Source of the DNA: Methylomagnum ishizawai
GTDB taxonomy: Bacteria; Pseudomonadota; Gammaproteobacteria; Methylococcales; Methylococcaceae
Direction of reading: 5' to 3'
Assembly (NCBI RefSeq): GCF_019670005.1
Contig: NZ_AP019783.1
Location: 1,012,501 to 1,076,500, forward strand
Length of the DNA stretch: 64,000 nt
A model generated the notes under the pieces. The model was given only the letters and a program-made list of their open reading frames with translations. It had not been told where the DNA came from and did no database searches. The position numbers were made by a program, and so were the translations under genes. Below, in pieces: positions 62,521 to 63,466 of this stretch. The first letter of the stretch is position 1. Each line of letters begins with the position of its first letter.

Positions 62521-62661
62521 CGGCCCGATCAAGTATCGTCGGCGGACTTTGCCTGGGCGGTTTCGGTGCCATGTTTGCCGCTGCGACTCCTAGAATATGT
62601 ATCTTTAATGGAAATACCGTATAATAAATTGGGGGGTTTCTTGTTTTAACGCATCTCTAGA

Positions 62662-62690
62662 TTGACGTGACGAATTAAGCTGTGTATCGT
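62662..62690 (+). promoter_or_regulatory. candidate promoter upstream of the P-loop gene
   Basis: -35-like TTGACG (62662-62667), 17-base spacer, -10-like TATCGT (62685-62690). It is 140 bases from the start and outside the repeat element. Moderate match only. Confidence 0.3.
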
Positions 62691-62748
62691 TCAGGTTTAG
62701 GTGGCGCATGCGGCGTATAATCTGGGTGGTTTATGCGGTGGTCGCGCT

Positions 62749-62826
62749 GCCTAATACACGTTAGGCAGGGCCGTAGGTGCGATTAGCGCAGCGTAATCGC
62801 ACGAATTCATATTAATTATGTTAGGC
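62749..62826. repeat. attC-like element 1 (78 bp)
   Basis: Begins GCCTAAT and ends GTTAGGC, so the ends are inverted and GCCTAATACA pairs with the right end over eight of ten positions. A central palindrome (GTGCGATTA at 62777-62785, TAATCGCAC at 62794-62802) surrounds GCGCAGCG. End type (RYYYAAC/GTTRRRY), size and central palindrome resemble integron attC sites, although the left end has AAT instead of AAC. Confidence 0.45.
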
Positions 62827-62829
62827 ATA

Positions 62830-63294
62830 ATGAAGAACCGTCCAATACCAGCAGAATACGCCGCCTTGGCGGAATTGATGCTGCCGCTTACGATTCCGAG
62901 ACGCAGACTGACTATTGCAATTGATGGAGTCGATGGATCGGGGAAGTCGAGTCTGGCGCGCTTCCTTTCATGGCAATTGGACATGCCTGCGATTGAGGCA
63001 GATATGTATCTTATGGGGAATGGCCTTATGCCGAGGTACGATTTCCTGAAACTTAGAGAATTGATCCATGAATGGCATCAGTTAAATCAACCCGTAATCG
63101 TTGAGAGCCTGTTTGTGCTTCAACTGCTAAGGGACATTAACGTGAAACCAGACTGTCTGATCCGTGTGAATCGAGTAGGGCACACCGGTAGCAACCGGTG
63201 GCAGAAATCCTATGCAAACTACCTTGCAGAATTCCCACGGGCAAACGTACCGGATCACACTTTAACTTGGCGGCAGCAAATAACGCCTACCTAA
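62830..63294 (+). CDS. P-loop kinase-like protein (uridine kinase-like fold)
   Basis: 154 residues from ATG 62830; an earlier ATG at 62818 lies inside the repeat element. Walker A GVDGSGKSSL near residue 37, a possible lid/substrate segment IEADMYLMGNGLMPRYDF, and a Walker B-like strand PVIVESLFVLQLL near 105. Shorter than typical uridine kinases (about 200), and the basic end HTGSNRWQKSYANYL lacks a clear lid. AGG is five bases upstream. Codon use is unlike the GC-rich neighbours, suggesting transfer. Substrate unknown. Confidence 0.7.
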   Translation: MKNRPIPAEYAALAELMLPLTIPRRRLTIAIDGVDGSGKSSLARFLSWQLDMPAIEADMYLMGNGLMPRYDFLKLRELIHEWHQLNQPVIVESLFVLQLLRDINVKPDCLIRVNRVGHTGSNRWQKSYANYLAEFPRANVPDHTLTWRQQITPT

Positions 63295-63364
63295 CAAACC
63301 GGTGCAGCCCGCGTAGCGCCGATTAGCGCAGTGTAATCGGAGGATGAAGTCCATACCACTAGGT
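63289..63364. repeat. attC-like element 2 (76 bp)
   Basis: Left end ACCTAAC (63289-63295), central palindrome CCGATTA-GCGCAGTG-TAATCGG (63319-63340), right end ACTAGGT (63358-63364), which differs from the expected GTTAGGT at two positions. The distance from the left end to GATTAGCGCA is 25 bases, identical to element 1. It overlaps the kinase gene stop. Confidence 0.4.
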
Positions 63365-63466
63365 TCCGCTAATCGCGCTTTCGGCCCTTGACGGACGCCG
63401 ATTTCCCATTATCATTCCGCGCCATCATCCACCCCAACCGGCTCAGGCTTACAGGTGTAGGTTTAT

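Follow-up and report, generated by a model that had tools for sequence, protein, structure and literature searches.

A probable orphan attI/Pc with one stranded kinase cassette, and a REPIN in the expected attC position, in Methylomagnum ishizawai

A gene for a small kinase-like protein in the Methylomagnum ishizawai genome is probably a stranded integron cassette: it lies behind an orphan attI site and cassette promoter (Pc) that have no integrase gene, its attC is missing, and a palindromic REPIN repeat stands in its place. The locus lies near the right end of the window, that is, the whole 64,000-nucleotide stretch of DNA that was analysed. An earlier note had read the gene as a possible solitary gene cassette bracketed by two matched attC-like elements of 76-78 bp, here called elements 1 and 2. 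This reading as a solitary integron cassette is probably correct, although the sequence taken as its proof was the wrong one: the cassette reading is favoured by homology of the upstream leader to an intI-attI region and by cassette-type boxes around the gene, whereas the flanking elements do not behave as attC sites.

Table 1. Features of the kinase locus, in window positions
Feature	Position	Strand	Basis
Leader: probable Pc promoter and attI, integrase gene gone	62556..62766	+	Copies found with model R1, G025 homolog, reciprocal model, 30-locus intI test
Probable Pc, TTGACG-17-TATCGT	62662..62690	+	Motif in all leaders; with an 18-nt spacer beside own and sister intI
Probable attI core, TGCCTAATACAC^GTTAGGC (the left end of element 1 in the first reading)	62748..62766	+	Alignment with G025 and own intI region
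Half REPIN (single REP, GTAG head) between attI core and cassette start	62767..62810	+	R2 match, 25.8 bits
GTTAGGC, probable 5' cassette boundary, three bases before the kinase start codon	62820..62826	+	
Kinase-like gene, 154 aa, P-loop DGVDGSGKSS; alternative start upstream at 62818	62830..63294	+	
ACCTAAC overlapping the stop codon; probably the first box (R'') of an attC since lost	63289..63295	+	6/7 complementary to GTTAGGC at 62820
REPIN, second half decayed, where an attC would be expected	63306..63388	-	R2 match, 75.2 bits; alignment; sister locus

The leader upstream of element 1 is a repeated sequence. A DNA search showed that positions 62617-62762 recur at C1:3185038 with 70% identity, and a model of the 200-bp leader (R1) recovered four copies in the genome at 152-167 bits each: A at this locus, B at C1:3184984, C at C1:1189270 and D at C1:3209507, of which A is the most diverged. 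Downstream of A lies the kinase gene, downstream of B the start (~95 residues) of a Shedu SduA-like protein that an IS630-like element interrupts, and downstream of C a 266-aa protein of no known family; in D, an element of the same kind as that in B is inserted in the core. The Shedu SduA-like gene start behind B (L076:5209-5535, G000:C1:3185208-3185534) gave a PADLOC match of 57 bits. Closely similar IS630-like elements are present at several integron-related loci (L134:4690-5890, L076, L038, L009, L011), the one in D exactly inside the attI core. The leaders have a promoter motif in common, TTGAC[AG]-17-TA[TG]CGT, and in A the G of the attI core follows 70 bp beyond it. When both strands of the window were searched for TTGAC-N18-TATCGT, the Pc of leader A was the single match, and the same promoter motif, with an 18-nt spacer, was also found upstream of the genome's own intI gene and that of the sister genome (G064).

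The nature of the leader is suggested by its best match outside the genus, at G025:C1:2233003-2233186 (31.6 bits, E 4e-7 for one genome). This sequence directly borders the upstream side of a divergently oriented integron integrase gene (402.7 bits across 282 positions, against a cut-off of 265; 471 bits, with one in-frame stop, in a second measurement), and attC-bearing cassettes (88 bits) come after it. The leader is homologous to the region between an integron integrase gene and its first cassette. A second copy in G025, at C1:3494553-3494737, retains IntI codons 1-38 at 60% identity and none of the remainder, and again precedes cassettes with attC. Therefore, loss of intI beside this type of attI can be seen directly in a relative. 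The surrounding region of that copy (L136, G025:C1:3489000-3499000) presents an orphan attI in another genus, with only those 38 codons kept and cassettes with several attC sites behind it. When a model of the four leaders was run against the upstream regions of 30 intI loci, G025 alone was picked (E 1.6e-9). Conversely, a model of the two G025 leaders, searched in 489 kb of M. ishizawai DNA, ranked B, C and D first and placed A as a weak fifth (E 6.5).

At the core, the alignment reads TGCCTAATACAC^GTTAGGC in A, GTCTACTTTAC^GTTATGT in G025 and TGTCTACTACAC^GTTCGCC in the genome's own intI region, and therefore the left end of element 1 is best read as an attI core. On these alignments and model matches, the leader is probably a Pc promoter and attI whose integrase is gone. 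We also considered whether it is a copy of the attI region of the genome's own frameshifted intI, and rejected this; the similarity was very weak (E 0.017), and the leader would therefore come from a different type of integron. No IntI remnant was detected by tblastn near leaders A, B, C or D. Weaker leader matches in other genomes of the order likewise had no intI nearby by tblastn.

The gene behind leader A carries the boxes expected of a cassette, with a GTTRRRY sequence before it and a complementary RYYYAAC sequence at its end. As the earlier note had observed, its TAA stop codon (63292-63294) falls within ACCTAAC, the left end of element 2. Among 529 mechanically defined open reading frames, from the window and ten other stretches, a pair of the GTTAGGC/ACCTAAC type was found around the kinase gene only, and the same test at a wider distance gave one candidate each in L009, L039 and L136. 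The gene is also AT-rich, again as had been noted, at 49% GC compared to 59.5% for the window. One copy of GTTAGGCA lies at the attI core and a second at the cassette start, separated by the half REPIN; this doubling could be what remains of an earlier first cassette, or could have come about through the REP insertion. The protein itself matched nucleotide-kinase and AAA models weakly and below their cut-offs, and its matches in defence libraries were confined to the P-loop and set aside for that reason. Its relatives include proteins of Candidatus Gallionella acididurans and Polaromonas sp. P2-4 (45% and 41% identity); 4 of 300 other genomes of the order contained a weak match, plasmids gave only remote relatives, and the gene was not found in viral contigs. 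No close solved relative was found by sequence, and an AlphaFold model built from two sequences (mean pLDDT 54) was too poor for a fold search.

These data must be weighed against a simpler history, in which the kinase was an ordinary horizontally acquired gene, the leader a repeated promoter region of some other mobile element, and the likeness to an integron a matter of chance. In keeping with such a history, the attC model finds no complete attC at the 3' end of the gene, where there is a REPIN instead; the Gallionella and Polaromonas relatives are single genes beside which no attC was seen by eye; and the similarity between the leader and G025 is moderate. The divergence of leader A, with its E of 6.5 in the reciprocal search, and the lack of an integrase remnant at A-D also count against an orphan attI. 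However, the best foreign match to the leader falls exactly upstream of an intI gene, the other G025 copy precedes attC cassettes and keeps the first IntI codons, and the box pair surrounds only one of the 529 reading frames. The recurrence of the leader before different or interrupted genes, its promoter motif, and the absence of the gene from the sister genome likewise count in favour of an orphan attI. We therefore regard acquisition as an ordinary gene as unlikely.

The description of the two flanking elements in the earlier note was exact as a reading of the letters: element 1 begins with GCCTAAT at 62749-62755, has GATTAGCGCAG from 62781 after 25 bases, and ends with GTTAGGC at 62820-62826, and element 2 begins with ACCTAAC at 63289-63295, has GATTAGCGCAG from 63321, again after 25 bases, and ends with ACTAGGT at 63358-63364. 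That they are units with these ends was not borne out, as their common part, a 33-bp core of 82% identity, is a REP palindrome. The pattern CGATTAGCGCAGYGTAATCG has 23 copies within two mismatches genome-wide as compared to none for the reversed control pattern, and many of the copies are paired as inverted doublets, 36-37 bp apart, in which the spacer is conserved. REPINs are known as GTAG-headed palindromes in inverted pairs (PMC3116915, PMC3733652). A REPIN covariance model (R2) found ~15 places in the M. ishizawai genome, or ~20 loci when single REPs are included, and ~8 places in the sister genome. The genome also encodes a REP-associated tyrosine transposase (RAYT; L045:257-808, NF047646, 206 bits against a cut-off of 80), with a REP of the same family at the 3' end of its gene. 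Thus, the palindromes of the two elements have the GTAG head, the many copies, the inverted doublets and the resident RAYT gene of a REPIN family, and their shared core is a REP palindrome and not attC. Element 1 is a half REPIN, because it contains one REP and then departs from the REPIN consensus. Element 2 belongs to a whole but decayed REPIN, and ACTAGGT is therefore not the decayed right end of an element, as had been proposed, but an internal run of the second REP.

The sister genome clarifies how the REPIN relates to the gene. At the orthologous site, which in both genomes is bordered by the EamA transporter gene and by the same DNA downstream, G064 has a REPIN and no kinase, and the second half of this REPIN is similarly altered, both copies reading TCCGCTAATCGC where the family reads TGCGCTAATCGC. 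The stretch from the EamA gene to the REPIN in the sister (L055, G064:C1:3980000-3992000) also includes a second pair of palindromic repeats, of another family (GCGGAATA...TATTCCGC). Beyond the REPIN, from 63448 to past the end of the window, is an insertion sequence with a DDE transposase (right end near L012:2760); ACCGGCTCAGG flanks it on each side and is present as a single copy in the sister. Behind leaders A and C the REPIN starts within ~12 bases of the stop codon of the gene, and at both sites, the two comparable cases, the sister has the REPIN and neither leader nor gene. The kinase may represent either a gain in M. ishizawai or a loss in the sister. We also considered that a REP had inserted, at this very site, into a then complete attC belonging to the kinase cassette; this is unsupported, because the sister has a REPIN there without the kinase. 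The simplest account is that deletion or short-homology recombination at REPINs removed the attC.

REPINs are in fact concentrated in integron-derived DNA, which holds six to eight of the ~20 REP loci and was taken as ~1% of the genome or less, its lengths being estimates. A binomial calculation for six loci gives 5e-10 to 8e-8 for assumed integron-derived lengths of 25 to 60 kb, a figure that overstates the case, since the lengths are estimates, the clusters depend on one another and REPs are found preferentially between genes. This concentration, together with the REPINs without modules at A and C in the sister, allows for the idea that REPINs are more than passengers, such that attI-plus-gene modules were inserted or transplanted at pre-existing REPINs with the hairpin in place of attC. 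Within that scheme, IntI or RAYT could target the REPIN hairpin in single-stranded form, or the hairpin could provide shared homology. We consider such a role quite improbable.

To search for attC directly, we used a covariance model (R3) trained on six attC sites that came from M. ishizawai and its family. Real attC sites score 20-88 bits with this model, which also recovered sites outside its training set in the genome's own array (L009), in its second array (L038, C1:2984-3000k) and in G025. This was a search of the kind that the earlier note had recommended, and no match was obtained at element 1 or element 2; they are not attC by this test. With filters off, the sole score above noise in the region was 11 bits, for the 18-bp GCCTAATACACGTTAGGC, a GCCTAA..TTAGGC pair in the attI core. 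The proposal that the kinase is bracketed and mobilised by the elements, as a matched attC pair or as a novel attC-like site based on the palindrome, does draw on the exact end-to-core spacing in both elements and on plausibly placed GCCTAAT/GTTAGGC and ACCTAAC boxes. However, the outer boxes of element 1, while complementary at 6/7 positions, include a left box that is the attI core and folds on itself, those of element 2 are unmatched, with the right box inside the REPIN, and predicted folds do not pair the outer boxes across either element. Moreover, the core is a REP that recurs throughout the genome, in which a RAYT gene is also present. The earlier note had itself named wide occurrence of the elements without an intervening gene as evidence against its reading, and this is what was observed, both throughout the genome and at the sister's orthologous site, where the REPIN is present and the gene absent. 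Taken together with the negative attC model, these results make an attC-type pair highly unlikely. Still less can be said for a REP-gene-REP unit moved by a REP-associated transposase with the REPs as its ends, in the manner of IS200/IS605, which we think hardly credible: the gene has a REP to either side, both on one strand, and the genome has a RAYT gene and repeated REPIN-gene neighbourhoods, yet the two REPs come from different REPIN halves, the right one belongs to a whole REPIN whose counterpart in the sister stands there with no kinase, and the shared leader is left unexplained. RAYTs are not known to transport genes.

The window contains no integrase, as the earlier note had stated. 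Its suggestion to look for intI elsewhere did reveal two clear genes, but both look damaged, and they are far from the kinase locus. The gene at C1:1873903-1874784 (L009:16820-17890) shifts out of frame immediately ahead of the segment in which integron integrases have their catalytic tyrosine, and the one at C2:214914-215567 (L011) lacks its first hundred or so residues, the N-terminal third. Several attC sites lie beside the former. The sister intI is full-length (G064, C1:2846381), and several related genomes have intact integron integrases. In addition, a second cassette array (L038, G000:C1:2984000-3000000) has at least two attC sites and no integrase seen, with three REPINs at or near the ends of its cassette genes. 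Similarly, a probable cassette at L039:5635-6406 (G000:C1:1427634-1428406) encodes 153 aa and has its TAA inside GCCTAAC, with a REPIN 18 bases on and another before it. Near both of these loci, Rfam C4 antisense RNA matches above threshold were found on the minus strand (L038:3790-3876 and L039:4139-4226).

To return to the orphan attI with its stranded cassette, the locus could have arisen as follows. An integron integrase of the G025 type would have joined the kinase cassette at attI by crossover at G^TTAGGC, which would have placed the gene under the Pc at 62662-62690. The integrase gene and the attC of the cassette would have been lost later, and because of these losses the cassette would now be fixed, expressed like any ordinary gene if the promoter works. 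The palindromes belong to the REP/REPIN type of repeat that REP-associated transposases spread, and this genome encodes one such enzyme. A half REPIN lies in the junction between attI and cassette, and a REPIN, which the sister also has at that site, follows directly after the stop codon, in the attC position.

Integron surveys rest on intI and attC, and this genome appears to have four attI/Pc copies with neither alongside. Two of these still precede an intact foreign gene (the kinase and the 266-aa protein), and one precedes a cut Shedu-type defence gene. Integron leftovers may thus outlast their recognisable parts, and may therefore be undercounted. Indeed, outside class 1, attI sites have been poorly characterised and go undetected by IntegronFinder (PMC9024848), and integron finders would therefore miss an orphan attI and a cassette without attC. 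Our literature search turned up no publication about orphan attI sites or about cassettes that contain REPINs. The repeated occurrence of REPINs in attC positions suggests that two systems, both acting on hairpins of single-stranded DNA, are linked.

Among known arrangements, the locus resembles the attI/Pc and first cassette of a chromosomal integron, in that a promoter and an attI-like core precede a promoterless, AT-rich gene with GTTRRRY/RYYYAAC boxes, but it differs in having no adjoining integrase gene, no attC behind the gene, and a single gene. It also resembles the IntegronFinder classes CALIN (an attC cluster without integrase) and In0 (an integrase without attC) as an integron remnant without a main part (PMC9024848). 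It is neither, however, consisting of attI/Pc and a cassette gene alone: the region has no attC, whereas a CALIN, as the earlier note had suggested this relic might be, needs at least two without an integrase, and there is no integrase at the locus as In0 or a complete integron would have. Finally, the repeats compare well with REP/REPIN systems with a RAYT (PMC3116915, PMC8266576, PMC3733652) in their GTAG-headed palindromes, inverted doublets and RAYT gene with an adjoining REP, but they are set apart by a low copy number (~20 loci) and by an unusual concentration at integron-derived genes.
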